From NCBI RefSeq assembly GCF_019649055.1, contig NW_026570448.1:1-64000 (forward strand): a DNA stretch of 64,000 nucleotides, written 5' to 3'. Source of the DNA: Paramacrobiotus metropolitanus (Eukaryota > Tardigrada > Eutardigrada > Parachela > Macrobiotidae). Positions 64-62,547 of this stretch are shown here, piece by piece; the stretch's first letter is position 1; every line of letters starts with the position of its first letter. Below the pieces are notes generated by a model. It was not told the origin of the DNA. It ran no database searches and saw only the letters and a program-made list of their open reading frames with translations. Both the position numbers and the translations under genes were made by a program.

Positions 64-1573
64 TTAGCCAAGGTCGGTTGTTCGGTTGACAATTGCTGAA
101 TGACGATTGTTGGAGGTCGGAATCGTCTTGTTCCGGTTTACCTCCTCCGAATTCCACAAAGCCTTAAGTTGGTCGAGTTCCTCCTGTTGTTCGGAGTCGA
201 CCGGCTTGGGCTGTTCAGTTTGTTTCGGTTGCTCGTCTATAAATTCTGTGTGAACTATAGACCGCAATGCTGTAGTTAGCCGGACATCGAAGGTCGGTTC
301 TTCGTCCTCCGATGACGAATCATCCGAGTCGTTTATGCTCGGTTTATCCGTCTTACAGTGTCGGACTGCCAGATCGAATTCTTCGTCGTCATCTTCTTCG
401 GATTCTTCCGAAGGTCGGTTATCGGAGTCCGTGTCCGCCGAATCGCTCGTACTTTGTATGTCCGAGTCGTCCGACTGATAATCTTCGAATTCGACTTCCG
501 ATCCGTTTTCGGGGTCGACTTCTGACATGTTTTCGAATCCGACCTTTGTGGTCGGTTCGAGTTGGTCGACTTTATCCGTCGGTTGGGTAGGTCGACTTGC
601 TCCGTCCTGATTCTCAAGGTCGGTTGGCTGTGAGCCTATGTTGCTCAGCCATCGGATGCTCGTCTGTTGGGGCTTCCGAAAGCGATCTACCTTCCGTTCC
701 TGTTGCGGAGGCGACGGTGACGACGGTCTGTCGTCCGACCAAGTTAGGTCGTGATGAGCTTTTATTGCTCGTACTACCTCGTCAATATTGTCTTGACAGA
801 TAGCACACCGATAGGGTTGATCGGTTTCCTCCGGGACTACGTTTCCTTGAGGCTTCGCCGGGCTACTCGCAAACTTCACATTGGTTGGAGTGTGCGCCAT
901 CAGTGGTGGTAACGGTCTAGGAACTTGCCGCGTTATGGCGGTGTCCTCGCCGTACCGTTGCCAAAATGCAGTCGTTGACGATTCTCCGTGCAACCTTACT
1001 CGCTGCATGTAGGCGAAAAGTTGGGAGCCTAGTTCCTGGCACGGCATTTCTAGCGGGGGTGGTATGGGAAGTCCGTATTCCATATACTGTCGATGGATCG
1101 GAATTCGTTCATCTTCCCATTCCCATGCTTCGTCCTCTATGTCGTTCGTGAGGGCGATTACCGGTTCACACGTTTGTTGTGCGTCCAGTATCTGGTCAGG
1201 GGTTACCGCTCCGTTCTGTTGCAGAGTGGTCACTATCTCCGACGTCCGTTGGTCGAGGAAGTGTCGAACTCCCGAGAACCAAGTTCGGTACTTTTGTCGT
1301 ACTTCCTCTCGGTTCATGGCATCCGCGTCAGCGGATGCCTCTGGTATCGGGATAGACTTCAGTACAGTCCTGGCCGGTCGTAATGTACCGTCGCGTATCC
1401 GTCTCTGATAGTGCTCTATCACGTTATGGAGTGCTAGTTCCTCCAGCAGAGTGCGGTTCGTATCCCGGCAATCGCGGCAGATGTTACGTGTGGAGTTCGC
1501 CGGGTGATCAAGCCGACTAATCCGAACTTCGTTTCCTACCGTGTCCGATGCCTCTGGTATCGGGATAGACTAC
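64..1573 (-). CDS. Pol-region ORF with two C-x2-C-x13-H motifs and a long acidic domain
   Basis: The frame is open from about 1573 to the stop at 64 and overlaps the end of the protease ORF; the GTG at 1422 is only a nominal start. Two zinc-finger-like motifs share the spacing C-x2-C-x13-H: CRDC followed by H near 1,430-1,480, and CAIC followed by HH near 755-815. Between and after them the protein is rich in Pro, then strongly acidic (EESEEDDDEEFD). No reverse transcriptase motif is present. The function is unknown. It may be a spacer region between protease and reverse transcriptase, which would lie left of the window. Confidence 0.5.
1334..1571. repeat. 25-bp direct repeat, 213 bp apart, in the same reading frame
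   Basis: The same 25 bases (starting GATGCCTCTGGTATCGGG on the plus strand) occur at 1334-1358 and 1547-1571. The spacing is a multiple of three, so both copies encode SIPIPEAS in the same minus-strand frame. The sequence between them is not itself duplicated, as far as I can see. Confidence 0.8.
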
Positions 1574-2455
1574 TACCTTCGTTCCTTCTGGTTGTTCCGG
1601 AATAGGAATCGGCGTCAGAATGAAGGTGAATTTCGAATGCAGGTAGTCGCATTCGAGTAGCACTGGGATGTCCGCTTCGGTCGGCTGGACGTGAAAAGTG
1701 TGATGGCTGGTAAAGCCCTGCATTGTTACAGGTGCCGTACAGCAATGAGACACTACGAAGGCGACTTGTCCGCCTACACCGAGTATTTTGGTGTAGTGTC
1801 CGAGAGGTTGGATCGTTAAGCCGTTCCTCTCGCAAAACCGTTGTTCGATGAGCGAGGTTTCCGCTCCGGTATCCAACATCGCCAGTGTGGGCGTGGATCC
1901 GACTTGGATTTCGTGTGTCCAAGCTCGAACTGTCTTCGGTTTCTTGTGTGTTCCCTTCTCAAAGGTAACTTCCCGCACCGTTGGTTTGATGGGGATTAAC
2001 GACACCGGTCCGTGGTCGGCTGACTGTTGAGTTGAACCTTGTGTAGATTCGACTCCGACTTCAACCACTTCTTGTACCTCAGGTCGGTTAGCTACTCCGT
2101 CCTCCGGTATTTCGGCGGTTCCGAACCGTTGTGCCTGTGACAATATCCGTTCCTCCATTGAGACTTCTGTTGGCCTCAATGTCGACCACATGTAGTCGAG
2201 GTTGAGGAATGTTCGAGAACCAGCTACCGTTCTGGTCGGCTGCTCTCTTTGCTGAAAGAGGTCCGCTTCTCCCGGCCGAGTAAACGGGTACCTGTGCTTC
2301 CAATGGGACTGTTTCCCATTGCTCGAATCCTTCCGGTTCTTCGGTAAGGTCGATTGCTGCCATTGTTGCAGCGTATCTATCCGTTGCGCGTCCGGATGAT
2401 ACATTGGGGAAGTTTCTGTTGCCCCGGTGCGTGGATCGGCGTCCCGGTCCTCCAC
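1517..2455 (-). CDS. Retropepsin-like aspartic protease ORF
   Basis: A 312-codon frame. Around residues 193-203 it contains MLDTGAETSLIE, the D-T/S-G-A active-site loop of retroviral/retrotransposon aspartic proteases. Hydrophobic beta-strand-like segments follow (LGVGGQVAFVV, ending in ADIPVLLECDYLHSKFTFIL) as expected for a retropepsin fold, which is active as a homodimer and cleaves the polyprotein. The N-terminal 130 residues have no recognisable domain and overlap the preceding ORF. The track start at 2455 may not be a true initiation codon; entry by frameshift near 2,280-2,455 is possible. Confidence 0.7.
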   Translation of the reverse strand: MEDRDADPRTGATETSPMYHPDAQRIDTLQQWQQSTLPKNRKDSSNGKQSHWKHRYPFTRPGEADLFQQREQPTRTVAGSRTFLNLDYMWSTLRPTEVSMEERILSQAQRFGTAEIPEDGVANRPEVQEVVEVGVESTQGSTQQSADHGPVSLIPIKPTVREVTFEKGTHKKPKTVRAWTHEIQVGSTPTLAMLDTGAETSLIEQRFCERNGLTIQPLGHYTKILGVGGQVAFVVSHCCTAPVTMQGFTSHHTFHVQPTEADIPVLLECDYLHSKFTFILTPIPIPEQPEGTKVVVYPDTRGIGHGRKRSSD

Positions 2456-2963
2456 GTCTTGGGCCTCGTCTGGGCTGCTCGGTTGAGTTTGTCCTCACCG
2501 GCAATCCGGTCCAACTTCCGTGGCCGGGCCGTACTACGTCACTTTGTGTGACGGACGGCGCAGTCGCATTGGTTGCGCTGCTTGGGTCGGGCAATTCCTG
2601 CGTTCCGACCTCCGACGTTCCAGCGCCAAGTTGATGCGCTGGGTCGGTTGCCTCGAGTGCCTGTTGCATCCCGGGCCAAGCTTCGACGGTGCCATTGTTG
2701 GCGTACACGCCGAGCTGAGCGGCTAACTTCCGAGCCGTTTCCGCCTCCTTTGTGGAGGTCGATATCGCTTTTGCGAAATCCTCCTCGGAACTGTTTTCGT
2801 TCAGTCCGAGTAGTTGGAGGATGGTTGCTACCTGTTGATAGCCTTCCTCGATCGTCGTAGGAAAGTTCAATTCGTTCCGGTAATTTAGCGATTGGTTAGT
2901 CGCATTATCCTTGTCCGGTGGTTCGGTCGGATGTTGGAGGTCGAATGAGTCACCGGAGCTCAT
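2088..2963 (-). CDS. Linker ORF downstream of gag, coupled by ATGA overlap
   Basis: This 291-codon frame begins with an ATG that shares three bases with the gag stop codon (ATGA at 2960-2963), a -1 register. It is acidic at its N-terminus, Gly/Arg-rich in the middle (RRGPRRGGPGRRS) and Thr/Gly-rich later. No enzymatic motif is visible. The last about 120 codons overlap the protease ORF in another frame. Expression by termination-reinitiation or -1 frameshifting is inferred from the arrangement alone. Its register to the protease frame requires a further +1 shift, so either this copy is broken or the element uses several recoding events. Confidence 0.5.
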   Translation of the reverse strand: MSSGDSFDLQHPTEPPDKDNATNQSLNYRNELNFPTTIEEGYQQVATILQLLGLNENSSEEDFAKAISTSTKEAETARKLAAQLGVYANNGTVEAWPGMQQALEATDPAHQLGAGTSEVGTQELPDPSSATNATAPSVTQSDVVRPGHGSWTGLPVRTNSTEQPRRGPRRGGPGRRSTHRGNRNFPNVSSGRATDRYAATMAAIDLTEEPEGFEQWETVPLEAQVPVYSAGRSGPLSAKRAADQNGSWFSNIPQPRLHVVDIEANRSLNGGTDIVTGTTVRNRRNTGGRSS

Positions 2964-4813
2964 CGACCTTGGGCGTTTCCCGGGGAGTTACTCCGAGCTG
3001 GCCCGTTGTTGGGCGACGCCAAGCCGAAAGGCTGATGTGGCGGTAACTGTTGCCGCCGTTCCGGAGATCCTTGTTGACCTCCACCGCTATTCCTGCGGTT
3101 GCCACCCGACCCATTTCCTGGGCCGGTCTGCCGGTTTCCGTTACCGGCGCCGCCCGAGCCTCCACCTTGTTGGCGTTGGCGCGGGGGCGGCACGACCAGT
3201 GCATAGTTCGGGTTGGCCGATCCCAACGGTCCTCCCGTCTGGTATCGCGTATGCCAATCCTCGAACCAACGGCGATTCGGGTTGTCCTGTACCCGAGTGC
3301 CGATGAACGCACATCGTGCTTGGTCGTGATTGCTGAACTTGCAGAAGTTGCAAGTAAAGCTGTCCGCTAACGACCATTGGAGGAACAGTTGTTCCATCCG
3401 ATCCACGTAGGTCGTGTATTGCCGAGCACTTTGTTGTGCCTGGGGAGGTCGGTTCCCTTGTTGGTTGCCGCCTCCGCCGCGGTTAGGAAAGTTGCCGCGA
3501 CCGCGTTTCCCGCCGCCACGTCCTTTTCCGCGACCAAAACCTCCGCCGCCATATCCCTGTGTGGGAGGTGGGCCGTATGCGGAGTATCCCTGGTTCGGGT
3601 TCTGTCCGTAACCAAAACCTGTGTTGTTTTGGTTACCGCCCGAGCCATAACCTGGGCCTCCGTAGTTGTTAACGGGGTTTCCAATTCCAGGTGCCGGGGG
3701 ATTCAGGTTTGCTGCCGCCGCGCTCGCCCAAGTCTGTTGCTGGACTGGTGCTTGTTGCACCGGTGGCGTCGGCGCCGGACTCCGTTGTCCGTACTGTGCC
3801 GTTGGAGTTTGGTATCCCGGCATCATATGCGGCTGATATCCAGTCTGTTGTGGTATCGCCGGAGGTGGAGTCGGGACAGGTGCAGGTGTTGCTGCCCGGA
3901 CTCTGGCGTAGTCGCCATCGCGTTGTCTGCGCACCTCGTACATTTCCTTGCCATTGACGAAGCTCCGTAAGTAGTCGCGGAACTCGATTGGTGTCGCTGG
4001 CATCCTGATTTCCAGGGCTTCCCGTAGTTTGGGTTCGTGGATATTCTCCTTGAGATGGTACATTATTATTTGATCGGTAATCGTGGGGACTTGGGACTTC
4101 ATGAACATCATTGCGTCGTAGTACTGTTCCGGCGTTTCTTCGCCGAAACGAAATATCCGTTTGTTAATTCGGGATATCATGTTCACTTCTTTGTTCTTGT
4201 CCGCAAATCGTTGCTCGAATTTGGTCAGCCATACGTTGACTGGCCATCCACCGAGTGGTTCTCCGGCGGCTTCGAGGGTGTGCCATTCTTCCGCTTGGCC
4301 TTCTAGTCGGGCTACCAAGTCGGACATGAAAGTCTGATCGTCTTCATACCATTGTTGGGCTTGACGATACAGGCTTCGGATCTGTTTAAGCCACCCGTGA
4401 AGTTTGGTGTGGTCTCCGTCGAACGGCGGTAAGGGTTGCCGACGTCCGTGAGACATTGCTCGTACCAAGGCAATGTGTGCCGGGTCCTGTGCCGGGGGAA
4501 TCGGGTATGCCACCGGCGCAGCTTGTTGTGCAGCCGGGGCGGGTGGCGGGTTGGCATATGGTACGTGACCTTGTTGGTCTTCGTATGCCCCCTGTTGATA
4601 GGCTTCTTCGTCGTAGCTGTCGTATTCGTCCTGTTGCGGATACCGAGCCTGGGCCTGGTCTTCGTGACGAGGCCGTTGTGGCTGTCCTCCATGCTGTTGT
4701 GGAGGGGGCGCTCGATTTTGTCTCGGCGCCTGCGGATAGAATCCACTCGGTTGGTTCGTAGAGTCTTCCGTACCGGTTGGGCTGTGTCCCCTGAACCGGC
4801 ATCCGACCTTGTA
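2960..4813 (-). CDS. Gag core with CCHC zinc knuckle
   Basis: This frame is in register with the coiled-coil ORF upstream and is separated from it only by TAA 4814-4816. The open stretch starts right after that stop; the first track start is a GTG at 4513. The segment from about residue 35 of the GTG form (PPFDGDHTKLHGWLKQI and onward, with the W-L-x-x-F-E-x-R-F core and the EEWHTLEA region) resembles the retrotransposon Gag capsid domain. A Gly/Asn/Gln/Pro-rich linker follows, then a perfect C-x2-C-x4-H-x4-C knuckle (CNFCKFSNHDQARC, near 3,310-3,350). Role: capsid assembly and RNA binding. The tail is Gly/Pro-rich. The stop TGA overlaps the next ORF's ATG as ATGA. Confidence 0.75.
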   Translation of the reverse strand, partial: YKVGCRFRGHSPTGTEDSTNQPSGFYPQAPRQNRAPPPQQHGGQPQRPRHEDQAQARYPQQDEYDSYDEEAYQQGAYEDQQGHVPYANPPPAPAAQQAAPVAYPIPPAQDPAHIALVRAMSHGRRQPLPPFDGDHTKLHGWLKQIRSLYRQAQQWYEDDQTFMSDLVARLEGQAEEWHTLEAAGEPLGGWPVNVWLTKFEQRFADKNKEVNMISRINKRIFRFGEETPEQYYDAMMFMKSQVPTITDQIIMYHLKENIHEPKLREALEIRMPATPIEFRDYLRSFVNGKEMYEVRRQRDGDYARVRAATPAPVPTPPPAIPQQTGYQPHMMPGYQTPTAQYGQRSPAPTPPVQQAPVQQQTWASAAAANLNPPAPGIGNPVNNYGGPGYGSGGNQNNTGFGYGQNPNQGYSAYGPPPTQGYGGGGFGRGKGRGGGKRGRGNFPNRGGGGNQQGNRPPQAQQSARQYTTYVDRMEQLFLQWSLADSFTCNFCKFSNHDQARCAFIGTRVQDNPNRRWFEDWHTRYQTGGPLGSANPNYALVVPPPRQRQQGGGSGGAGNGNRQTGPGNGSGGNRRNSGGGQQGSPERRQQLPPHQPFGLASPNNGPARSNSPGNAQGR

Positions 4814-7595
4814 TTAGTCGGTGTGGGGGCACCCGACCTTGTTGGTCGGAGCTGTCCTCTCCGTTCTGTCCGTCCTGCCGCTGGTCGGTCGTGTTGAATG
4901 ACCGAGCCCTTGCTCGTTCAAAGTCGAACGGCGGGTTCTGGCGGAGGAAGTTCGGATTGAGTTCGTCCTTGGTGGGCGATATGCTTCTATACCCGGTCTC
5001 AGTGACGGGACTGGGAGACGTTCGGCATCTGTTGTCCGATCTCCTCTCGCGTTAGGTACCGGCGCGTACGAGGTGCTGGTATATGCACCGGCAGACGTCG
5101 TTGTCGCCACGTTCGACGTTGGCACCCGCGGTGCCGCGGTCGACGTATTGTGTTCCGGTTCCGGAGCAGCCGGAACTGTTGGTGGTTGTGGGATTGTTCC
5201 CACGCTTGGGTCGGTCGTTACGACTCCGACGAAGTAGGAGGTGTTGTTCTCCTTCCTCGCCATCTCCTGGGTCGGACTAATTCCCCACAGGATGTCACTG
5301 ATTGTTCGTGACGGCTGTTGATCCTGTGCCATGGACGTTCGATATGAGGGAGGTTCAACCCGGCTTTGTTCCCGGTATGGGGGAAGTTCGACCTGGCTTT
5401 GTTCCAGGTGTTTCTTCTCCTCCCTCAGACACCGTGTTTCCGTGTCCATCTCGTCCATTTGCCGCATCATCTCTGTGAGATTGCGGGCGGCTTGTTCGCC
5501 GAAGTCGTATAGTTCGACTTCACGAGCTTCCAGGTAAACGATGCGGCTGTGTTGCGCCTCGTTTACCTTTCGAGCTTCGTTCAGGTTGTACTCCAGTTGA
5601 GCTCGGATTTTCTGTTCCTCCTTGAGGACTTGGTTCAGTCCGTGAACCTGGTCGGCTAGCTGAGCGTTTGCTTCCACCAGGTCGACATCGGCTGTCCTTT
5701 GGTTAGGAAAGCCCATGTCCCGAGCGTTCGCATCGATGAATCGACGTCCCGTTCTAACAAGGAGAAGTTCCATTTCCGACTCGAGTTCGTCGGTTCGTTG
5801 CGTTAGACGGTCGATCTCGTTATCGGCCTTCTTGAGTTCCACCACATACCTATCGACTTCGTTTCGATAGACTTCGGCCTCTTCGTTGGCCTGGTTGAGT
5901 TGCTGGTGAAACGCTCCTGCTGCCTGTTCCGACTCGACCAGTGCGGTCTGAACATCGGCCAGGTCTTTTTGTGCTTCTTCGAGCGCTTTGTGCGCCTCGT
6001 CAAGCTCCTTTTTGATTTCGAAGACGGCTGCGGTTGAGCGTTCCAACATGCCAGTAAGTATGGCGATTTGGTCGTCTTCGTATCGACACGGTAAATCAGC
6101 TCGCTTCAATATGGCGTTGAGCCGGTCGATTTCCCGTTGTTGGGTGGCGATGCCCTTGTTGGCATCGGCCATGTCTCGTTCCCATTTCCTCCGTTCGAGC
6201 TTATGGGTGTCCTCCGAGTTTCGGAGGGATCCTTCCGCCGAGTCGACGATTTTGTCCGCCAAAACGATCTGTGTGATCAGTTTGTGGCATCTCGCTCGGA
6301 GTAGGTCGAGATCGTTGATCTTTTCGGGCGGTGTTGCCGCGATCCACTTCTTAGCCGTGTATTCGAGTGCACTGGCTTGGTATCCAAGGTTCTCCTTATC
6401 GGACTTGGGTGGTGTGGTAAAGAATCCATCCGCACTACTCGGTCTTGATGCGTTTGTTGCATCAAAGACTTCGTTTGTCGGTGACGGAGTACTCCCAAGT
6501 TCGCCAGTTCCGAACATTGGTGGTGACACCCTTAGATTCAGGTCGACAGGTCGACTTTGTGTCGCCTTAGTCGACTTCACCGTTTGTTGAGCTTCAATCG
6601 CTCGAGTCGACTCGCGTCCGGTTGGCGAAGGTCGGCTCAGCGGTGAAATTACCCGTTTGTTGGGTGCCGGCATGTTAGTCGATGATCCGGCTGGGTGAGG
6701 GCCGCTTCGTGGCGGTACCTCGGAATCTTTCGTTCCGGCCGGTAGTTTGGTCGGCTGGACGGCCGCATCCGACTTTGTGTCGGCTGGTTGCCGTTCCAGG
6801 CTAGTCGGTTGCTTGTTACCGACTTCCTTTTCTCCGACCTCTGTGGTCGGCATCTGTTGTCCGACCTTTGAGTTTGGCGAAATCCTTCCGACCTGTGTGG
6901 TCGGTTGGACGTTGCCGACTTCTGTTGTCGGTTTCTCCGTTCCGTTCGATGTCGGTTGTCCGACCTCTTTCGTTAATGGTAGGTCGACCTTCGGTTGGTC
7001 GACTTCCTTTACTGAGGGCTGGTCGACCATTTGTTGGTCGGTTTCCCTAGTCGGTGATTGGTCCCTGACTTCTTTGGTCGGAGATTTTCGCTCGACCTGT
7101 GTGGTCGGCGATTTCCGTCCGACTTGGTTAGTCGGTATGTCCATGTTGGACGAGGTCGGCTTCGGCACTTCCGTCCTGTTGGGTGATTGCCGTCCTAGCT
7201 CGGTGGCCTTTGTGACCGTTACCGAGTCTTGAGCTCTGTGTGAGCTCGACTCCAGGTCGGCATGAGACAATGTGGTCCCTGCCTGCAGCTGTTCCACATC
7301 CCCCCCCGGTCGGGTGGGACGGGGCTGCTACGTCAGCTGGGGCTTCCAGGAATGTTTTATCCCTGGCGTCCTCGAAACTGTCATCCGAAGTCGGATTCGA
7401 GTCGGCAAGGAGGATCCGTTCGTTGCGTCTCTCCTTCGCTTCGGCCGACTTAGTCGAGTCGGTTGAGGACGGCTGACTTTTATCCTGACCGGCGTACCGG
7501 AGTGAGTACTTTCCGGTCATATTCGCACGCCGAGAATAGTCAGTGTTGAACTTTCTCGCGTACTCATTTTCTCTCTGGTTCGACATTGTGGTCAA
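4814..7595 (-). CDS. Gag-extension polyprotein: VG/SPT repeats and long coiled coil (frame shift at a G8 run)
   Basis: The ATG at 7595 opens a 155-codon frame rich in charged residues. At a run of eight G (minus strand; 7,300-7,307 on the plus strand) the reading must change frame to enter the 827-codon frame ending at TAA 4814. That second frame has no ATG at its track start (7297 is GTG), so it is most simply the continuation of the first. Its residues about 30-170 carry degenerate PTxxVGxxSPT repeats. Residues about 340-640 form a long heptad-like, Glu/Lys/Gln-rich coiled coil. The C-terminal 200 residues are Pro/Ser/Thr-rich. I infer a structural role in particle assembly. It matches no family I can name. 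The homopolymer could be a mutation, a sequencing error or a programmed slip site. Confidence 0.6.
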
Positions 7596-7738
7596 ATCAG
7601 GTCGGCTCTGGTGGAGCCTTAAAAGGTTTTATCGGTTAGAAAGAGGAAGTCGAACAATCTTCTGTGTGAAGATGTTCGGCAAAGTCAGGAACGTCTTTTA
7701 GTTCAGGAACTTCCGAGGGTCAGGAACGTCCGGTGAGA

Positions 7739-30959: not shown

Positions 30960-31897
30960 TCAGCACAGTCCGTCGTTCTCCTCGCATCTGAAATCCTTGA
31001 AGCAGTATTCGCGCAGTGCCCGCGTGATCCCGTCGAAAAAGGTGGTTTTGTCGTACGTTAACGGCTCATCTTTACCGATCCACTCGGCGGCGAAGAACGC
31101 CACCTGCGGCAGAAACGAAATATACTTAAAAAAAGCGATATTAAATTTTTAAAAAAATTTCCAATGGTATGTCTTAATCAAATTTTTCGGTTTGAGGAGC
31201 TGAAAAAAACTTACAATGAATAATTTCTCGTTCAGTTTCCTTTAGTTTCTAAATATATGTTGAATATTATAGAATATGATTTTATTTATGTATGTCATAA
31301 AATAACGGGATTTGTCAGCTTATAATTTAAATTAAACAATTTTGCTTCTGATTTGATATTTTATTTTATTTCAATTTACAAATCATCAATAAATTATTTC
31401 ATATTATACAATTTATACTGACCTATCAAAATGAAGTACTGTATGTCACAAAATATTAATTTCTTAATACGGTAACATAGCACGGCTTATAATTGTGAAT
31501 TAAGCAGTTCCTCTATAATTGTTGTGCATTTTACTTATTATTTCCATTTGATCCTTATTGATTGATCGATCCGTTCAGATAATTTCCGACAATTAATTTC
31601 GTAAGGAATTTTACTGTGTGAAGTGAGAAACGAGGAAATGAGTTGCCGTCAAAGGTCACCTGCGGGGGTTTGCGGCAGTCGAACTCCTTGACGACGCGGA
31701 TGGTGAGGTTGGGGCGTTGGCTGTCGGCGAAGAAGCGGGAGGCGTTGGCGCGCCGCGAAATGTCCACGAGGAGGCCGCGCGAGAACAGCATGTAGCGGTG
31801 CGCCTTGTCCTTCTTCACGAAGCGCGCGTGCACCAGCTCCCCGCCCAGGAAGCTGACGAAGGCGCCGCGCTCCAACTCCACCTTCGATTTGGCCAGC
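30960..31897 (-). other. SET and post-SET exons with missing catalytic residues
   Basis: The two exons are 31660-31897 and 30960-31103. Where SUV39-type SET domains have GWG (S-adenosylmethionine site), this protein has GLW. The NHxCxPN box reads ADSQRPN. The EELxFDYG box reads DEPLTYDK. The post-SET CxCxxxxC knot is altered (YCFKDFRCEENDGLC). VAFFA, next to these, is conserved, so the alignment is secure. I infer a pseudo-enzyme or a strongly changed one. Confidence 0.65.
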
Positions 31898-34800
31898 CTA
31901 ACCGACAAACGCGCACCATTGGACTATAAACTGCGATGAGATAAGGGCGCAAAAAAGGAAATCAACTGCCTAATAAAAAATAATTTATACAAAAATAATA
32001 AGACAAAAAATTGAAAGAATATTACAGAAATAATAATACCGGTAGAATGAATCACTAATCATACAGCTGAACGGAAAACCGTTATTTTGGCATCTTGACC
32101 GCTGGTCCAACAACTGCTCGCAACATACCATTGAACAGCAACAATATGTGATGGGGTACAAAATTGTAGTGTAATGGCACGAAATTTCGATCGTAACGAT
32201 CATGGTTGTGCGTAAAAGAAATCAAAAACTGCGTTGCAAATTAAAATTATTTCCTTTTTGAACTTTTTGCAGTTAAACTGGACAACTGCTCAGGCAAAGC
32301 GAGTAATCCAACAAAACTGCTATAAAAACTTTCTTTTTTATAATAACCTTTCTTTCAAATGGCACGCCGGTGTTTAGTCATTCTGTACCGAACAACATGG
32401 TACCGTACAGCAACAATCAACACCAGGGCGAATATTGTAGTACAGAGGCTCACAATTTGGCCAGAACTCATTCTCCTCGCGCGTACACAATACATACCGA
32501 GCAAAATACCAATATTTATTTAGCTTAGTTTTTACAAAAAAAATTATAAAGTACCCGTGCTGCGTGCAAAACATAACACTCATTTTTAATTATAATGGTA
32601 CCCTTTAAAACAATCATTAAAAAAATAATTTTGTTGTAAAGAAAGAACTGCAAGTCAACAAGTCAACAATTTCACTTCTCTCATGGTCAGTCCACACTCC
32701 ATAAGCATCATAATGATACGAAATTAAGTCTAATCACAATAACCGCCCATCAAAGCATAACAAAATACGATTTTAATATAGAAAATTTAGTACACCATAC
32801 AGAAAATTCACACACCCTCTTTCAAAATTACTACGCCATATATTTATGCGAGTAACGAGATTACCAACAATAATAATAACTTTATCGTAGCACATCTCCA
32901 TGGGCGGGGCCAAAATACATTTTTATGTTAATTTTTATATTTGCCTATTTTAATGTACGTAATTTAATTTATACATAATTTAACTCTAATTAATAGTTAA
33001 ATAATTTAAAATTATTAAACAAATTCGCGCTAAAGCACGGCCTTACCAGAGCCCCTTGACCTTATCGAAATAAATCTCCATGGGCGGGGCCAAAATACAT
33101 TTTTATGTTAATTTTCATATTTGCTTATTTTGTTGTACGAAATTTAACTTATACGTAATTTAATTCTAATTATTAGTTGAATATTTTGCAGATATTATAC
33201 ATATAAATTCGCACAAAACCCCGGCCTTACCAGAGCCCCTTGACCTTATCGTAATAAATCTCCATGGGCGGGGCCACGGCGTCGTGGAGCGTCTTTAGCG
33301 GACACTCCGCCCCGCAACGGCACATGGCCGGGCACTGGAGGATGGGCCGGCCCTCGGGGTGGCTGGCCAGCAGCCGGCCCCGGGCGTCGAACACCGCTGA
33401 GCCGCGGTTGGCGATCTTGATGCAGACGCAGGTGCGCACGTTGCAGACGCCGCCGGCGCACTTGCAGTACAGCACCGGCCACTTGTCCTGCCGCGCCGGC
33501 GCCAGCTCGATGAAGGGCTCGCTGTCGGCGTGGATGGACAGGCCGAACTGGTAGTCGAAGGACGGACGCCGCTCCACGTCCGTGATGTTCAGCTGGATGG
33601 TGCCCTGCACGAGCCGAAATATCCCTGGATTAATCTGGCAAATTTTATACCGCAACGTATCATTATTATTTTATAAATGCATTACTTTCTCAGTAAAAAT
33701 CCTTGTTTTATCAATTTTTATTTTTAAATTATTCTCTTATTTAATTCTTTTTGTTTTATTTATTATTTACTATTCATTGCTTCTTACCAGTTTAACTAGC
33801 TGAAATTATCATGCAGTATCTTCTGTTAATAATTATTATTTTAACTTTATTTTTTCTTTTTTCAGAATGATTTTATTTCAGAAAACTCTCGTATGTTTTC
33901 AAACATTTTTATGCTGTTATAATTACACCACCGAGCTGTTTATGAGAAAAATGTATACAATCGAAAGATCCTTATTTTGTCATTTTTACATTAAAATGTT
34001 GTTGTACATTAATGCTTATTGATTTATTTATTCACTGATTCGTTTATTCTCTTATTACTATTTTACTTTACTAAGCATTATTTTAAATTTAATCTTTCCT
34101 TTTTTAAAATTATTCTGTTGTAGAAAAGTTTCTTCTATTTTTTGACATCGCTATTTTTTTAGAGGAGTTTCTGAAAAAAATTAGAGAAAAAATGTTGAGA
34201 GCTATCTGCAACCTCAACAGAGCAATATTGTAACAGAATGCGATGTCTTCAAATTTTGGTGTGTACAGCGCCATTTCTCTACGATTTTCTCTGGATATTT
34301 TGACTCCCTCTGGTAATACATATATAGCGCATTTTGTCACCCCGTCGACCGAGCGCTATCTTTCTCCTACCTGCGAAGTGCGCTGTTTGGCGGTGCCGAA
34401 GGTGAGGTTGGGGTGGACGGGCATGAGGGTGACGGTGGTGGTCTTCTTGACGGGGGAGGGCAGTTTGTAGGGCAGCGGGATGCTGGCCGCCAGGTCGCTG
34501 GGCGCGTCCTTCTTGGTGTTCAGCGGGGTGGCCGGTGTGCCCGCCTCCAGCAGATCCAGCGCCATCTCCTCGTCAAACCCCCCGCGCACCAACCTACCCA
34601 TGCAGTCGAATTAATCCGCTATACCCAAATGCTCAAAATTAAAAGATAATAAAAATTATTAAATAAAGAAGTTATTAAAAAATTAAAGATAAATCATTAA
34701 CAAATTATTAACAAATAAATTAAATTACAAACAACTGTATAAATTATTAAATTGTTTGATTTTAAATTATTAACAAAAGTTAATCATTAAACAATTATTA

Positions 34801-37800
34801 ATGTGGCTGTATTATTCATTAAAAATTGTTTTAATAAGTAAAAAAAGTAACAACAAAATTAAAACTGGAAGAATATGAAAAATATTAATAAGGTACGTCT
34901 ACAGAATAATCCAATGCACAGGCTGTCCCAGTACCGACTGCGACCGCATGACATTTTGCGTTAATCGTCGATTTCGACGTCGCCGGCTACCGTGACATTC
35001 GATAGCGACGAAGCCATTGCAAAGTCAGATTTAATAAAACCGCTCGCATAAATTGAATGAAAAAATTTTAAAAAATTATTAATTTAATTTAGTCAAACAA
35101 CGTATTGCGTTTACAACACTGCAACAACACTTTCTACAGGACTGCGCACATTACGCCAAACAAATGTTTTGGCCGTAGTGGATTGATTGACTGTTATGTC
35201 GCTGGGTAAACAAAATAAATATCTCGTTATATTAATGTTCATCATATTGCTAGCCCATTTGTTACATTGTCTGCCAAAATTCTCGGATACTTATAATGCT
35301 TTTATTCTTTAACGTACTGGTGGACAGTATGTATGAAAGAACATGCAAATAAAAATTAGAAAATAAAACAGATTACTTCACATAGAAATGGGAGTAATAA
35401 ACATTGCAAAACTATAATCACAGGAAAATTAATAATGTTTTGGGTCTGGATTACTCCAAAGAAATAATCTGCGCGCCGGCCCCTATTTACTGCGAACTTT
35501 CCTTCGCGGTTCTGAAAGTGCACTTGAGTAAAATGTCGAAATTGCACGATAATTGACGGGCAAAATAGATTATCTCATTTTGTTATTACTATTAAAATTA
35601 ATTCAACTTACCATTCAAAAAAATATTCACGATTAAAAAAAAACAACAGTAATGCTCACGGGAACTGCTTAAATTAGACTGGCAGTTGCCTTGATTTTTT
35701 TTGCGGAAGGACAAAAGTAAAGACCATGCAGATTCTGAATGTTATCACACTGCTGCCTGGACGATAATGTTGCCGGAAGTGCTGCAATCTAAAATGAATT
35801 CCGGCTGTTCGAAATTAAAGAAAACGGCCATTTGAATTCCGAGTAATCGGAATTATAATTGCCTTTTTCCAATTGCGAGTACTCGGAATTCAGATGGTAC
35901 CGGTTTAATTTACGATTACTTGAAATTCAAATTACGGTATTTAAATTCCGAGTATTTGGAATTCAAATACAGACCATTTAAATTTCAAATACTCGGAATT
36001 CAGAGTAACTTGGTTCAGATTCCGAATACAGGCATTGCACATTTTTAGAGACTTTAATTAAGCATTATTTCTGGTTTTCATGCCTGGAATGTAAGTACGC
36101 GACGTTGTGTTCTTTTCCCACTTCTCCACTCTGTAATTTGCTACTGCGCGACTTTATGAAATGGTGCCATTCGTTTAATTAAAAGTTATACTGAAACTCG
36201 CTTGGTGCAGATGCTCGTTTTTGTGTTTTGTCGACCGGACAGTGATGTATCCTGACGTTGCGTATGTCCAATCTGAACGGGATGTCTGTTCTTGTGAAAT
36301 ATTGAAAACAATAATAATAACAATGATCCTGCATTAGTGCAAATATTTTCAAGATCATTTTAGTCGGAAAAATACAATTTATCGCACAAATATCTGCGGT
36401 AGTGCGCTGATGAACACATAAGAAATAACTGTACTTCTAACGACTGACCAAGTGCAGACATTTATTTTTTTCATATTCAGTAAAATATGGTTGTCATGTG
36501 ATTAATTTGTTCACTGGACTTCTTATAAGTGTCTCCACCCACAGCTGATAGCGCTATGCGTATAGACTGGTATGCGTAAACATTATTTTGAGTCCAGTAC
36601 GCACAGTTGTGTACGCGCGGGAACTCAGTACTCCGTTGTCGGCTCATTTGAGCACGTTTACTGATAAGAAATACACGAATCAGAGAATCGCGCTGAATCA
36701 TAGATCCACGTGCTCGGACAAAGCAAAGCCGACCACATGCAATTATGCACATGAGCTGCACACGCTGGTGTAAGTCGGGTGTCACTTTCATTGACATCGG
36801 TCCAGTTGTGTGAGGTTCTTAATGAAAGTGTAGGAAATTAACGCATTCGCAAATTTTACAATGCCGTACGCGTGGAGTGCATTTTTTTTCTAAATTTCTA
36901 CTGATTGTACACAATGGCATCTGAATCTCAAGAGAGCGCAGGCGGCAGTGAGGTTTTGCGCGGCAGAAAGCAAATCTGGCAACAAACTGGGAGATTTGAG
37001 AACGCATATGGTCGCGGAACGGTCAAGGTCAACGTTGGAAAACGAAATTGGGCGGTACAAAGCCGCCAGTTACCCGGAATTTACTGAACAGAGCGATGCT
37101 GTACGTTTTTGGAAGTCATCACATGGCAAGGGCTTTGAAAAGCTGTCGAAAATTGCTGCTGCCGTTTTAGGTGGGTAAAATATATAACACTCTGAAGCAA
37201 ATAGTAATGTCATACAAGAAAACAAATCAAGCAATTAAGCAGTAAGAAATCTTAGCTGCCTAAGTACATTCTATGTTTATTCGTTACAAATTTACGTAAT
37301 ATTTCTGCAAGAGATAAACACAACAGGTGACAACACCATTGAAAACTTTCATTCAGTTCACTACCCTTTCACCCGTTCACAATTTCATTTTTACGTTTGA
37401 AACTGAGCAGAAGTGAGACAGAAAGTATTAGCCATTTATTTTCCACACCAGCCTTGCGAAGCTGAAAAATATTACCTAATAAAATTGCGTACCATTATAC
37501 ATACCGTAATTATCGAATTTGTGGCCCTGGGGTACAAATAGTTCAAAGGTCATGGTCGCGGGGGTTATTTCGGGGCGGGTGGCATTAATTCTCATACGGC
37601 ATGTTTATGAAGGAAATATTATATGTGTTTCAAATAGCTGCGCGTCGTTTCCAAATGAAACTGAACATAAAGCTCACGGTATAAGCAACTAGTGCAACTA
37701 CACAACTTTGGGGGCATCATTTGGTAGCTTATTTCTACCTATACTAGTGTTTGCTAACAAACACCACATAACGTTTATGTTCGCACAGAATTACCCTTAA

Positions 37801-40800
37801 GTTATACCAACTGTATGAAAACAAAAATTGAGGTATACCTATCTTTTTGCAGCACTTGAGATTTATTAACCCCCCCAGAAGCGCATTTTCAAGGGTGTTC
37901 TGATTTATTAAACACAACCGAGCAGCGGCGCTTTTTGTTCGAGAGGGACTGTTTATTACGAACGAAGCCGAATTACTTTACATATTGAGTTCATGGTTTC
38001 GGTGTCCATAACCTGATTGTAAAAACAACAGAAATGGCAGTTTTCGTACTATCTTTAAGGTAGCGGCGTCATTTTGTAACATGTTCACAGAAAGTGAATC
38101 GAAAACGTTTTAACACACAGCTGTGGCGTAAATTGAGTAACCAGTTGACGTAAATCGCTTAGTACTTGCCAAACAAACAATTAACGTGAGGATAAGTGAG
38201 GAAAAGATTGTACACGGAACGAAAGATACTGTCGAAAGTACTTGGTGCAAGGTGCTGTGAGAGGTTGTGAAGCGAGTGTAAGATTGTGAAAGGCGTAAAC
38301 GGAGTGTCAACAAAAAATTATAGAGGTACCGTATGCTTGTGTACAAGTGCAAACACGTAACTGTAGTAAACCAAAAAGACTAAGTTATTATAAATTTAAA
38401 TTGGTGAGGCCATTTTCACAAAGATTTTAAAATGCAGGTGGAGTTGCTACCAGCACATCAACTGAACAGCTGTTCTCGGTTTCCGGTTTCCAGACTGTTG
38501 GACGGAGAAATAGACTTGGCGGGCACCGATTGGAAGTAGAAACGCTACTGAACAAGAACTTGTCTTTCACGAAGATTCTGTGTGAAATTTCAGTTTTAGA
38601 TTAACACCATTAAGGCGTCAACTAGATTCACCCGGCAGCCTAAGTAGCTCACGGCAGCCTAAGTAGCTCAGCCTAAGTAGCTCAGTATGAAAATGCCTGT
38701 ACTTGTTCTTAAGTTTTTTGCACATTTATTTAGCGTTGAGTTTTACTGATAAAAGTCGGCAGAATTCGCAGCGGCTCTCGTGCTAAGTTACAGCCCTAAG
38801 AAAGAATCTTATAAAATCTCACAGTCCAAATTGACAATAAAAGCGATCGTAACTGCCGTGCATTTGCTAATAATATAGACTACAAGTACAGACTACATTG
38901 TTTCAACTACAGACTACAGTAAAAGGCTACTGTTATAATAATTTTAGGCTTTAATTTGCGTCTTAAGTATTAATTTGGTGCCGCAGAAACGTATAGTCGT
39001 CGTACAGGTCGTCGTGAATTATCTTAATAAATGGTATTTTAATAAAAGGCAAGCTTAAATTGCGAGCACTTGCGTTCGTAAATACCGCAATTTAATTTCG
39101 AATAATTGGAGTTCGAATTTGAGGCATTTTGAATTCCGAGTAATCGAAATTCAAATTTACATATTATAAATTTCGAATACTGTAATTGGAAATCAAAGAA
39201 ATTTTTATTAGATTACTCGGAATTGGAAATACCCGAATTTGAATTCCGATTACTCGGAATTGATATCGAAATTCTTTCGCGTGCAATTTCGAGCACTTCC
39301 GGCAACACTACTGGACGACATTAAACATCTCTCGGCGCCACCACTCTACGATTCTCACAATATTCGACAAGCGGTATGAGATAGACAGACTTGTACGAAA
39401 ATTTAACGAACGGCTATTTATACGAAAAGTTAAAAACAAACGAGCAACCATTTTGGAAAAAAAGGCGGTGTGGAAAGCAAATATCCTGAAGAACAGCAAA
39501 GATTTTTCGAAGCTGCCAAAACACTAAATTATCTTTTCGTTTCTATTTCAAAGACTCGTAGTAGGCTTTCCTGAAAAGCATCATAAAAACATTTCTAAGG
39601 AAAAATCCGTATAATAAATTATATAAAAAACATTTTAAGATAAAAAAAAATTCTTCAAACATTAAATCGTCCATAAATGACTATCAGTTGTACTAAAAAC
39701 GAAGGATAAATTAGAAAGAAGCCAATCTACGCAAGGCTAACCTTAAGCCGAATATTCAACATTTCACCCCAAAAGAATCATACTTGTGCAGGACGGTCTC
39801 GTTCATCTGGTCGCGCGCAGAGGGATTGGCGCCGTACTCCAGCAGCAGCCGCAGCGTCTCCCGCGACAACTTCTCCGCGGACTCCATCAACGGTGTGCGC
39901 ATATTCTGGTCCAGGGGGTCCACGTGCACCCGCGGGTATTTTTCTAAGAGGAGACTCAACGCCCGCAGATCGCCGCCGCGCGCCGCCACGTGCAGAGCGG
40001 TCTTCATGTCCGCGTCGCGATTCAGCGGCTCCGCGCCGTGTTCCATCAGCAGCTCCATGCTGGCGTAGTCACGGGCCCGCACCGCGTTCAATAAGGGGGT
40101 ATCGCGGGTGGGCTCCGTCAGGCCGGTGTTGGCCCGGCAGAGGCGCAACAGGCACACCAGCAGGACGAATTTCTTTCCTGCAGATTTAAAAATAAATCAA
40201 ATTAAAAACCTTGGACATGAATATCATTCTTGAAATAACAATAATATTTTTTTATTTATTTTTTATTCTCAGGGTTGTTTCTGATATCTGATGTAGTATC
40301 CGGACGAATTTCTTTCCTCGCAGCTTCACGGCGCAATACAGTCAGGCATCGACAGAAATAATCAGCAATTTCAGTGTTCCAATACTGCATGGTGTCGCCG
40401 CTATTTAATTTAAAATTTGCGCTACATCAGGCATATTTCTTTAGGCATAAATATGTTTACGTAAGTATGTTTACAAATTAAAAGCAGCCAAATACGAGTA
40501 TGTACTGTATATTAATTTTACGTGAATATATACAACTAGCACTAGTACATCAACCGAACTACGCGGCAACCAAATGTAAGTTATGTAACACCGTGGACTG
40601 TGGTGACATCGTAGTGTGGTGGCACAATAGTGATTCGTATTACTCACACGTGTGCAGCGTTCTATGGTCGAAACATTACTCTAGAAAACTAAAACAGGAA
40701 AAACAATGAATTTTAAAAAAAAAGATTTCGTTAAATTAAAAATCCATTTGCAAGCTTCAAAATTTAAAATGTACTTCTATGGAATCGGCATACTCTGGCT

Positions 40801-43094
40801 TCCCTGTTCGTGTCCAAAACAGTAACAGAGTTACGAAACTGCGAAAATATAAATTTAAAAAAAATAAACAGATAAAAATTATAAAATGCAAAACAATTTA
40901 CGCCGGCTGATCCTGGTATTCCTGTGTGGTGTTCAATAAAAGCAATAAAATTATGAAATTCAAAAAATAATAATTCAAAAAAAGATAAAAGACAAATAAA
41001 TGAATAAAAATATAAAATACAAAAACATACGCCGGCTCACCGTGATCTTCGTGCTCTGTCTCCAGAAAAGTAATAAAAAATATAAAATTAAAAAATAAAA
41101 ATTCAAAAAGTGTGAAAGATATGTATTTAAATAAAAAAACTGCAAAATATAAAAATTATACGCCGGTTCACCCTGATCTTCCTGCTTGGTGTCCATAAAA
41201 GTACTAAAATAATAAAATAAAAAAAATATAAATTCAAAAAACATACAAGATGAATAAATAAAAAAATTATAAAATAAAAAAAATATACGCCGGCTCACCC
41301 TGGTCCTCCTGCTCGGTGTACACCCGTCCAGCCCAATCCCACAACGTGGCCGTCAGCTGCGGCACCGGCAACCCCACGGTGGCCCGCGCATCGATCACCA
41401 TCTTCAGAATCCGGCTCATCTCCCCGGCCTCCTCCCCGTCCCCCTCCTTATGGACCCGTGGTCGTTTCCCATTGACCAGCCGTCCTCCCATCCCCTCGCT
41501 GCTCTTCCACTCCCCCCGCCGCATCAGCTCCTCCACCCCGCCCAGGAAGCCCTCCATCCAGGCCACCGGCATGGCCTCGGGGGCGAAGACGTTGAAGTAG
41601 GCGCGCGCCTCGTCGGGGGTGCGGAAGGGCTGCACCTTGAGCGCCACCACCCGCTTGTCCACGGGCGGGGCGTGGTCAGGCGGGTCGTGGGCGGCGCGCG
41701 GGCGGAAGGTGATGCGGTCGTCGCGGTCGGCGCAGATGGTGAAGCGCTGCAGGAACTCGATGATCCACCATTCCACGTCGGCGAAGCAGGACAACGGGGT
41801 GTCGGGCGGGATGATGTACTCGCCGGTGGACGGCGCGAAGACTACGGGGATGATTAACCTATAAAGAATTCTTTTTTGGTAAAGAATTACAGCAGTTATT
41901 TATAAATTAGTATAATTTGAATATTTTTTTGAGCCGGTTATAATTCGGCGGGCCTAATGATCTGAATTTGCGCTGTTTAATTTTCAAACAAAAAATCGTT
42001 TGATCTCGGTTTCTTTTAAATTCCATTGATTCTCGGTTTATTTTAGTTTTAGAAACTGCTTAAAAATTTGGTTTCTCAGTTTAAGCACAAATTCTCTTGA
42101 TTTTCAGGTTTTTTATTCAAATCGATTTTAAATATTTTACATTAATTTCTAACATTTTTTAATCAATTTCAGCCTTCAACTAGTGAAAAAAATTAGAAAA
42201 TCCGAAAAAGCAGGCCAAAAAGAATCCGAAACAAGAAAGAATAAAACAACATACCGTGATAATAGAATCGGGAAAAGGTATACATATTATAGCGTAAGCA
42301 ATCATAGAAATGTCGACAGTCGACTCGCACCAGACAACATACATCCCCTTGCTTGGCACTGAGCCACTACACTACGTGTCGCACGCACAGCAGTGCGTCG
42401 TGGTGCAACGAAGCTTGACAAACTCAAATATTTAATTTAAGTACTAAAATTAACTGAATAATTAATTCATTACAATTTATTACCATTTTTATTAGCATAA
42501 ATACGTAATTCTTCCATTACCAGCAGAAAACCGTATTTACACCCGACCGAGCATGACTACTGCAGATGCTGAAGGAAATTAAAAAAATCTTAAAAATATT
42601 GAAGCAGGCTTGAACCTCTTAATGGAATTATACTGCGTTTTTCGCCTTGCTAAACCAACGACACATTCGACCTGTTTTTAACCGTCGAGCACGGATAAAT
42701 AAAAGCGTTACGTATCTTACCTGAAGACCCCATCGACCTTCTTCCCCCCGATAGTGGGGAACTTGGGACCCCCGCGTTTATGGAAACCGTTCTTCCCGGG
42801 GGGATGATTCGGGGGCGGCCCCCCGCCCTGGAGGAGCCCCTGGAGGATCCCCGGGAGGGGCAGATTCTCCGTGTCCCCGCAGGGACGACGTGTGCCATAG
42901 CGTCGGGTAACGCGCGGACGGTGGAGGCGCGGGGGGAGGGGGGTGGAGGGGGTGACGTCGCAGCGCTGGTTCAACGGCACCCAGATCCAGTAGCGCCCCG
43001 GGGGCCGCCCGGGGGCGCGCTCCATGCGCATGGCGTCGTAGTACACCGAGAAGACGGGCTCGTAGTCCGCCTCCGCGGAGGATGCATCCGACAT
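30960..43094 (-). CDS. Ankyrin / pre-SET / SET protein of the SUV39-EHMT type with degenerate active site, 7 exons, 768 aa
   Basis: Exons (minus): 42721-43094, 41299-41858, 39784-40177, 34371-34593, 33231-33604, 31660-31897 and 30960-31103. Phases agree at all six joins; an in-frame TAG precedes the ATG at 43094. Residues 1-311 match no domain I know. About residues 330-445 form ankyrin repeats (TPLLNAVRARDYASMELLMEHGA, TALHVAARGGDLRALSLLLE, TPLMESAE...LRLLLEYGANP). Residues 564-618 contain exactly nine cysteines in the CxC..C..CxC..C..CxC..C order of the Zn3Cys9 pre-SET. The SET part (GAFVSFLGGELV, YMLF, LLVDISRRANASRF) is recognisable but lacks key residues. Ankyrin plus pre-SET/SET is the EHMT (G9a/GLP) layout of histone H3K9 mono/dimethyltransferases in the nucleus. 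Methylation activity is doubtful here. Confidence 0.8.
32881..33275. repeat. Tandem duplication (about 182-bp period) copying the pre-SET exon end and donor
   Basis: The last about 45 bases of the pre-SET exon and its GTAAGGCC donor (33,227-33,275) recur nearly unchanged at 33,041-33,092 and partly at 32,881-32,911. CTCCATGGGCGGGGCC starts at 33,260, 33,076 and 32,895. The second copy has one codon change (TAC to TTC) and an intact donor. Confidence 0.85.
33231..33604 (-). other. Pre-SET exon: intact Zn3Cys9 cluster
   Basis: Cysteines at residues 564, 566, 571, 576, 578, 608, 612, 614 and 618 reproduce the nine zinc ligands of the SUV39 pre-SET domain. The AVFDARGRLLAS segment between the two halves fits the usual D-x-x-G-R-L connector. 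The exon ends TG|gtaagg. Confidence 0.8.
35800..36010. repeat. Left subterminal palindrome cluster of the hAT element
   Basis: At least five copies or half copies of CCGAGTAnTCGG / GAATTCCGAGTA in both orientations just inside the left end. Likely transposase-binding sites. Confidence 0.7.
36948..38604 (+). pseudogene. hAT transposase, C-terminal dimerisation domain only, 2 exons
   Basis: Exon A, about 36948-37170, ends ...FWKSSHGKGFEKLSKIAAAVLG with donor G|gtgggt. Exon B, 38438-38604, starts after aatgcag and reads ATSTSTEQLFSVSG ... RRNRL ... LLNKNLS to TAA. Joined in phase they give the hAT dimerisation signature (W-W-like K.., L-A-x-x-x-L, S-T-E-x-x-F-S-x-x-G, N-R-L). The N-terminal zinc finger and the catalytic DDE region are absent, so this copy cannot be autonomous. 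The 1,267-base gap may be a true intron or inserted DNA. Confidence 0.7.
38636..38686 (+). repeat. Tandem GCCTAAGTAGCTCA repeat
   Basis: Three adjacent copies of GCCTAAGTAGCTCA with short spacers, just downstream of the transposase stop codon inside the hAT element. Confidence 0.7.
39080..39290. repeat. Right subterminal palindrome cluster of the hAT element
   Basis: The same GAATTCCGAGTAATCG-type words in both orientations just inside the right end, mirroring the left cluster. Confidence 0.7.
40783..41320. repeat. Five tandem units of about 118-131 bp copying an exon end and its splice donor
   Basis: The word CGCCGGCTCACC (minus strand: end of exon 2 plus GTGAGCCGGCG donor) and the about 20 coding bases beside it recur at about 40,783 (degenerate), 40,901, 41,030, 41,161 and 41,288. 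Units are separated by A/T-only stretches. Only the 41,288 copy is the functional exon end in my gene model; the others lie downstream in intron 2. Confidence 0.85.
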
Positions 43095-60159: not shown

Positions 60160-60769
60160 AAACCACTGGAAGAGGAAATACACGAGAGAGCAGCCAACTT
60201 GCATTATGTTAAGGATTTTTAAAGGAGAGCTGTATCCGTCCGAATCAGGCCGATATAAAAAAATGTACTCTAAAGACTAAAGCATGTGCTTTCGAAAATG
60301 TTCAGAAAGTGCATTACAGGCATGTGATATTATTTACGACCACAGACGGCGTTAATTAAATTTATCAAGATATTAAACCGAGCTTGGTAAATCAAGATAT
60401 ACCGATCCACTTTTACCGGTATTTGCATAACCAGTACAGCTTTTTGCTGCTACCAGAGGAAAGTGCATTTCGGCGATAAGAAAACGTATCGCGCACGATC
60501 TGATTATTGCATAATATCACGCACCTAGAGAGTTACAAAATTCAGGTGAATTTAATACATGACTGGGTGCGGCACAATCCTAAGACGGACAATTCACAGT
60601 TAAAGCCAAAAAAATTGCGTTTTTACTGTTGGAAAATTGATTTGCCAAAAGCACCATACAATTTTTAATAAAGTAGTGTATAGTTACGTGCCATATATAA
60701 AATTTTCTCGTTACAAAGGCTGCCGTTACCGTCAGTAGTTATCAAGTTGCAGTAACATTCTTGCCGGTA

Positions 60770-61077
60770 TCATCTTAAAGAGTTCTTTGCACACGTCTTC
60801 CCGCGGCACGGCTCTACAGAGCACTGGAGCGGTACATTTGTGGGACAACTATTATCCGGTGGGCAGATGGTTGGGGTGCGGACGGTTGTTTTCGACGGAT
60901 AGCGTAGTGAGGAAAGATCCTGCCCATTCAGGTACCATTTCATACCGCAGAGATCGCAGTTAACGACACACTGCGCCGTTGGGACACCGGGACAGTGGTC
61001 GAAGCTTGGATGACACCAGGCGCGGATGGCAACATAGGCGGGTGTGAATTCCGACGGCGGGCAAGTTGGGATGGAAC
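60770..61077 (-). pseudogene. Cysteine-rich module, second tandem copy, 3' end frameshifted
   Basis: The exon starts after an aacatag acceptor and encodes IPTCPPSE...AIRAWCHPSFDHCPGVPTAQCVVNCDLCG..WYLNGQDL and then EPCRGKTCAKNS. Compared with the 62-kb copy, about 45 bases are missing after KNS. The frame shifts to an early TGA, while the matching end (DDTGKNVTAT) survives in another frame. No good exon 1 was found: upstream at about 61,760 a stretch resembles the start of the 59-kb gene but has TTA where the ATG should be. It is probably a pseudogene, though a short product is possible. Confidence 0.55.
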
Positions 61078-61465: not shown

Positions 61466-62164
61466 GTACGCAAACACAGAATTAAACCACAATAAATTTC
61501 GTTTCAGTACGATTATTCCAAGTACAGTAGTAATAGAATAACTATAGAAGTAACCGTTGTGTAAAAGAAGGAAACCGTTGTGTTGCTGCGCAGTGTTGTT
61601 GTGTACTACTTAGTTATGGAAGTAAACCGGGTATTGTCGACTTGTGGTAGCGTTTGGCGTCGCAGTGTAACAAATCAATCAACGTTAACAGTTAAAGCAG
61701 TTAAACAAATTACACAGGAATTCATTCATTGCATATACCGGAAGTAAGAACCACTGGAAGACGAGAGACGTAACTGAGTGACCAAAATCCATTAGGCCAC
61801 GGTTTATAAAGAAGCAAGAAGTGTTCGGCAGCGAGCGGTTTTTTACGTAGCGTACAAAGCGTAAGCCGGCGTTTTTGTTTATCAAAGTAGATTAAAATGA
61901 TATGTAGGCATATGGTAAAATTTGAAGTAATATAAATTAGGAATAAAGACGGCGTACACAAAAATAATCGCATTTGACGAAACTCGATGCGGCGAGGCAT
62001 TTTGCACAACTAGCCACCAACGTCGCGTTTTATTACCTGAAAATTAATTTGTCCAAAAAGGACATACAGTTTCAAATCATAATGTAAGTCTTTGCCGTTA
62101 TGAAAGCATCAAATATGCACGAAGGCAACACTTTACACGTAGGCAATGTGAAATGCACCGGTAC

Positions 62165-62547
62165 TTAACATGAAGCAGTAACATTCCTTCCGGTATTATC
62201 ATAAAAGTACGCATTACAGCCTCCGCAGTAGTTATTACAGCACGTCGCGTAGGAGTTATTGGCGCACGTCTTCCCACGGCACGGCTCTTCGAAACACTGG
62301 ACAACCGGCGTCCCAGCAGGGCAACTATTCCCCGGTGGGCAAACTGTAGTGGGAATCGCGGTACTGGTGACGGTGGCATTAACCCAGCACTGCGAGGAGA
62401 CATCCTGTCCGTGCAGGTAAAATTTAAAACCGCAGCAATCGCAGTCAGCAACACACTCCGCCGTTGGCACACCGGGACACTGGACGTGCGAACCACACAA
62501 GGGTCCAAATTGCACGCAGAGGGGTCCGGGATCCGGAGGGCAGTTGC
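62165..62547 (-). CDS. Cysteine-rich secreted-type module, third tandem copy (fullest), exon only
   Basis: The exon begins after an acgtactag acceptor (phase 1) and is open to TAA. It encodes CPPDPGPLC...CGSHVQCPGVPTAECVADCDCCGFKFYLHGQDVSSQC, a Thr-rich linker, then CPPGNSCPAG...CFEEPCRGKTC...CCNNYCGGCNAYFYDNTG. It has 20 or more cysteines, many paired, as in disulfide-rich secreted proteins. I could not find its first exon upstream (62,548-62,760). It is the most complete version of the module shared with 59.3 and 60.8 kb. Confidence 0.5.

Follow-up and report, generated by a model that had tools for sequence, protein, structure and literature searches.

The human IFI6 gene (6-16) contains a splice-donor minisatellite (Turri et al. 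1995, as cited in PMC4526556); according to the citing paper, downstream units of this repeat reportedly serve as donors, giving rise to three mRNA species (PMC4526556). In the potato RdRp gene an intron was gained by tandem duplication over an exon-intron border (PMC4974935). A search of the literature for tardigrade introns or border-spanning tandem repeats found nothing on point.

The locus described here belongs to the tardigrade Paramacrobiotus metropolitanus, whose published assembly was obtained from nanopore reads with Illumina polishing (PMC8277472), and lies in a window of 64,000 nucleotides, i.e., the whole stretch of DNA analysed, with a GC content of 43.6%. The 3' end of a coding exon, its splice donor and the beginning of the following intron are repeated in tandem, and the array is very probably the product of a neutral tandem duplication across this border, which is tolerated by the gene and whose copies are decaying.

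The gene and its intron

The array is found in an intron of a minus-strand gene, flanked by two coding exons:

41299..41854, minus: coding exon, start approximate, ending with ...GAG GAC CAG G/GTGAGC, phase 1
40178..41298, minus: intron containing the array, 1121 bp, phase 1
39777..40177, minus: next exon, ankyrin repeats (Pfam Ank_2, E 5e-16, and codon-model segment)

The first exon is contained in an open frame (41267-41899, minus), with a codon-model segment at 41288-41854, and frame analysis reveals a phase-1 join, via the first donor, to the ankyrin exon at 40177; the donor at 41298 is probably the one in use. Downstream of the ankyrin exon, a PreSET exon is present (Pfam E 2e-7); among solved proteins it is closest to H3K9-specific methyltransferases and Clr4 (E 1e-6). 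The ankyrin and PreSET exons appear to form one gene throughout, which, judging from its domains, looks like an ankyrin-plus-SET (EHMT/G9a-like) methyltransferase. At the expected position of the SET domain, an open frame (31555-31923, minus) reads ANASRFFADSQRPNL, which is reminiscent of a SET motif but lacks the customary NHSC residues. Neither a Pfam SET match, even at E 10, nor any solved relative was obtained for this frame, which may be a degenerate SET domain, or else not a SET exon.

Other features of the window include a region of almost 7.5 kb and high GC (115-7598, minus), marked as coding with short breaks by the codon model, which could represent either a mobile element or a long, intron-poor gene. 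A pair of coding stretches, similar to each other and rich in cysteine, lies at 60735-61001 and 62161-62486; they share about 70-80% DNA identity at a distance of about 1.45 kb and are probably tandem gene or exon duplicates. The motif TTTGAATTCCGAGTAATCGGAATT, repeated at about 110-bp spacing in 35830-36004 and 39128-39261, looks like a dispersed repeat.

Structure and decay of the array

TRF detects a repeat at 40874-41319 with period 131, 3.5 copies and a score of 457. The unit, of about 130 bp, starts on the minus strand ~24 bases before the exon end and continues through the donor into ~100 bp of A/T-rich intron; unit starts are at 41322, 41195, 41064, 40935 and 40816, spaced by 127, 131, 129 and 119 bp. 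Units were delimited by cutting at the start of the 38-nt core on the minus strand. In the list below, core identity refers to the exon copy (unit 1), z is given in SD with respect to dinucleotide shuffles, and donor scores, in brackets, derive from a position matrix built from 119 donors of this genome (training median 6.7).

Unit 1, 41196..41322, minus: 127 bp; exon end, true donor (first intron base 41298; 6.9), A/T-rich intron start
Unit 2, 41065..41195, minus: 131 bp; core 87% identical, z 9.4; donor weakened to GTGAAC (5.3)
Unit 3, 40936..41064, minus: 129 bp; core 82% identical, z 7.2; donor GTGAGC intact (8.6)
Unit 4, 40817..40935, minus: 119 bp; core 76% identical, z 8.1; donor GT lost (ATCAGC; -3.1)
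Unit 5, 40784..40816, minus: partial, degenerate; core about 77% identical with six gap positions, z 3.0; GTATGC at donor position (0.5)

The array thus delimited consists of four repeat copies and a degenerate fifth partial copy, arranged head to tail, and the greatest divergence is found in its outer copies. From these alignments four copies are beyond doubt, while the fifth is a weak candidate; accordingly, of the fivefold array proposed in a preliminary description of this DNA, the tandem arrangement, position and spacing are confirmed by TRF and by unit alignment, but the last copy is partial and uncertain. The same description had placed the copies in nearly pure A/T. The spacers, which have 8-20% GC, are not mere filler: they are themselves homologous, most pairs scoring 4 to 6 SD above shuffles (6.0 for units 1 and 2, 6.1 for 1 and 3, 5.0 for 2 and 3, 4.4 for 3 and 4, 3.6 for 1 and 4 and 0.9 for 2 and 4), and hence the repeat unit is the entire segment of about 130 bp. 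The duplicated material makes up nearly half of the 1121-bp intron, and its GC-rich cores are conspicuous only through the contrast between GC-rich DNA of exon origin and an A/T-rich intron.

The donor had been said to recur five times. A donor position exists in all units, but the exact sequence GTGAGCCGGCG is present only in copies 1 and 3; copy 2 has GTGAACCGGCG (GTGAACC), copy 4 has ATCAGCCGGCG, with no GT, and copy 5 has GTATGCCGATT (GTATG). Along the array the motif is therefore intact, weakened, intact, lost and altered, and a GT of usable strength is retained only in units 1-3, being lost in unit 4 and weak in unit 5. Selective keeping of the donor cores can be rejected, since cores and spacers diverge to a similar degree: differences in core and spacer are 5/38 and 16/88 between units 1 and 2 (Fisher P 0.61), 7/38 and 16/88 between 1 and 3 (P 1.0), 6/38 and 17/88 between 2 and 3 (P 0.80), and 10/37 and 16/79 between 3 and 4 (P 0.48).

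Other exon-edge copies in the same gene

Self-comparison of the window revealed another array that spans a donor of this gene, and the start of one exon is present in an additional single copy:

32879..33276, minus: second array, PreSET exon end, donor and intron start; first intron base 33230; units of 184 and 180 bp and a 34-bp partial unit
40300..40326, minus: single copy of the ankyrin exon start; true copy at 40161-40186; 139 bp upstream; 92% identity over 25 bp

The second array, 86% identical over 218 bp, has the truncated third copy expected at the end of a tandem array, and is younger than the one following exon 41299..41854. Its copies are identical at 46/47 positions in the exon part and at 113/133 in the intron part. 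The exon part is thus better kept (differences 1/47 and 20/133, P 0.016), which, unlike the similar divergence of cores and spacers in the first array, counts against neutrality; part of this difference is however to be expected, as coding constraint acts on one member of the pair, the exon copy, and this alone halves the expected difference. The copied ankyrin exon start has no acceptor that scores with the splice matrix. Both features support the duplication process that had been suggested from the first array.

Origin of the array

The structure of the locus is best accounted for by neutral tandem duplication. A segment of about 130 bp over the exon 3' end and the intron start would have been duplicated in tandem, presumably through unequal exchange or slippage, with later amplification giving about five copies. 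The upstream copy, at the outer end of the array, would continue to supply the coding sequence and the donor, while the downstream copies would sit inside the intron, leave with it at splicing and decay, presumably neutrally. The gene can tolerate such a duplication, since exon and splice site remain intact in the upstream copy and splicing removes the others. This reading is based on the homology of the spacers and their core-like divergence, on the decay of the donors and the stronger divergence of the outer copies, on the in-phase join of exon 41299..41854 to the ankyrin exon through the first donor, on the same anatomy at 32879-33276, together with a possible further case elsewhere in the genome, and on a frequency of edge crossing that is not significantly above random placement. 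The donor of unit 3, which outscores the real one (8.6 versus 6.9), counts against it.

The preliminary description also proposed that the repeated donors produce alternative exon ends or decoy splicing. Copies 2 and 3 do retain intact donors (5.3 and 8.6), but their use in place of the first one is predicted to lead to a stop about 10 codons beyond the normal exon end. Two internal exons can be considered:

41172..41203, minus: candidate 32-nt microexon, weak acceptor (6.3), frame-shifting
41041..41139, minus: candidate cryptic cassette exon, 99 nt, phase 1-1, no stop; acceptor 12.0, unit 3 donor 8.6

The 32-nt microexon had been put forward in the same description, and an acceptor-like site is indeed present; however, at 6.3 bits it is weak (median 7.3; true acceptor 10.6), and the exon would cause a frameshift leading to a stop about 30 codons further on, so that, if used, it would serve as a poison exon. 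Stronger acceptor-like sites occur in the array at 41139 (12.0) and 40838 (10.0). Among the splicing options considered, only the 99-nt cassette keeps the frame and, if used, it would insert a Phe-rich stretch ahead of the ankyrin repeats. An acceptor/donor pair as strong as that of the cassette is found in 2.7% of shuffles, a figure that is not a strict P value, the thresholds having been picked after looking. A role of the copied donors in splicing, whether as decoys or by defining a cryptic exon, with the cassette as best candidate, is nevertheless improbable: acceptor-like sites in the array are not commoner, and if anything rarer, than in shuffles (3 versus 5.8 expected at threshold 6), pairs at looser thresholds occur only in the number expected by chance, the cores are kept no better than the spacers, and the splice model is rough, its 119 and 133 training sites having been self-selected at the ends of coding segments. 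A splicing function of the copies is accordingly considered unlikely on sequence grounds. There is a small chance that a cassette exon is being born here: a copied real donor and a chance acceptor in a T-rich spacer would give an alternative exon of 99 nt (41139-41041) that keeps the frame and precedes the ankyrin repeats, in an H3K9-methyltransferase-like gene in which tandem duplications have crossed splice sites at least twice.

A mutational process specific to exon-intron borders, favoured for instance by the step from GC-rich to A/T-rich sequence or by R-loops, could instead copy exon edges into introns, and a preference for exon borders had been suggested from the first array. In line with it, a single gene has two arrays across donors and one copy from the acceptor side: three edge-copying events in a gene of ~10 kb, where about 265 kb of other sequence gave one at most, are a notable clustering, which is without explanation and counts against simple neutral duplication. 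However, 5 of the 13 local duplications in the window cross the edge of a coding segment, versus 2.6 expected from random placement (P=0.09), the segments being those of a simple codon model and not true gene models; about three of the five resemble real exon borders, whereas one of the breaks falls within an extended coding stretch and a further one is questionable. A scan of 30 protein-kinase loci, 115 kb in all, gave no exon-edge array; in 150 kb of sampled genome, taken as 15 stretches of 10 kb at arbitrary positions, there was no comparable array and one possible exon-to-intron copy. In this single case (locus L040), positions 6524-6566, inside a coding exon, match 6993-7036 in the apparent following intron, 469 bp downstream, so that a further donor-spanning duplication in another gene is possible from the match. 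Three other candidates were discarded, as the one in L020 is a chance match, and neither the open coding-like stretch at 6071-6198 of L044 nor the A/T-rich sequence at 7436-7580 of L047 resembles an exon edge. The preference for borders is therefore not borne out, and a dedicated process of this kind appears very improbable. Even less credit can be given to an assembly artefact: repeats can misassemble in an assembly built from nanopore reads, but the published one was polished with Illumina data (PMC8277472), and the divergence of 13-30% between copies, each with its own changes, makes a simple misassembly unlikely; this origin is extremely improbable. A dispersed mobile element or introner also appears unlikely, since both arrays matched only their own locus in a DNA search of the whole genome (169.8 Mb, 533 contigs), which skips simple and very common words.

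Comparison with described systems

This locus provides a clear worked example of how introns can lengthen and spare splice donors accumulate through tandem duplication across an exon border; the exon-derived units are conspicuous in the A/T-rich intron and could be dated. The array by itself demonstrates no new mechanism and is of a kind already known. Like an ordinary intronic minisatellite or short tandem duplication, it has head-to-tail copies, a truncated last copy and outer copies that are the most diverged; unlike these, its unit extends from within a coding exon across the donor. The repeat unit of IFI6 is about 12 bp, much shorter than the ~130-bp unit found here. Both arrays are tandem repeats at an exon-intron border; each IFI6 unit carries a donor, and here every unit has the donor position, with a GT of usable strength only in units 1-3. 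They differ in that most copies are decayed in the tardigrade gene, where use of copy 2 or 3 as donor would give early stops. As in potato RdRp, splice signals are carried along by a tandem duplication that spans an exon-intron border (PMC4974935). In potato, however, the acceptor side was crossed and a new spliced intron was created, as shown by RNA-seq reads and by relatives (PMC4974935), whereas here the donor side was crossed and an existing intron was apparently only lengthened. With respect to both IFI6 and potato, this locus is set apart by the length of its unit, its A/T-rich surroundings and the fact that most donors have decayed.
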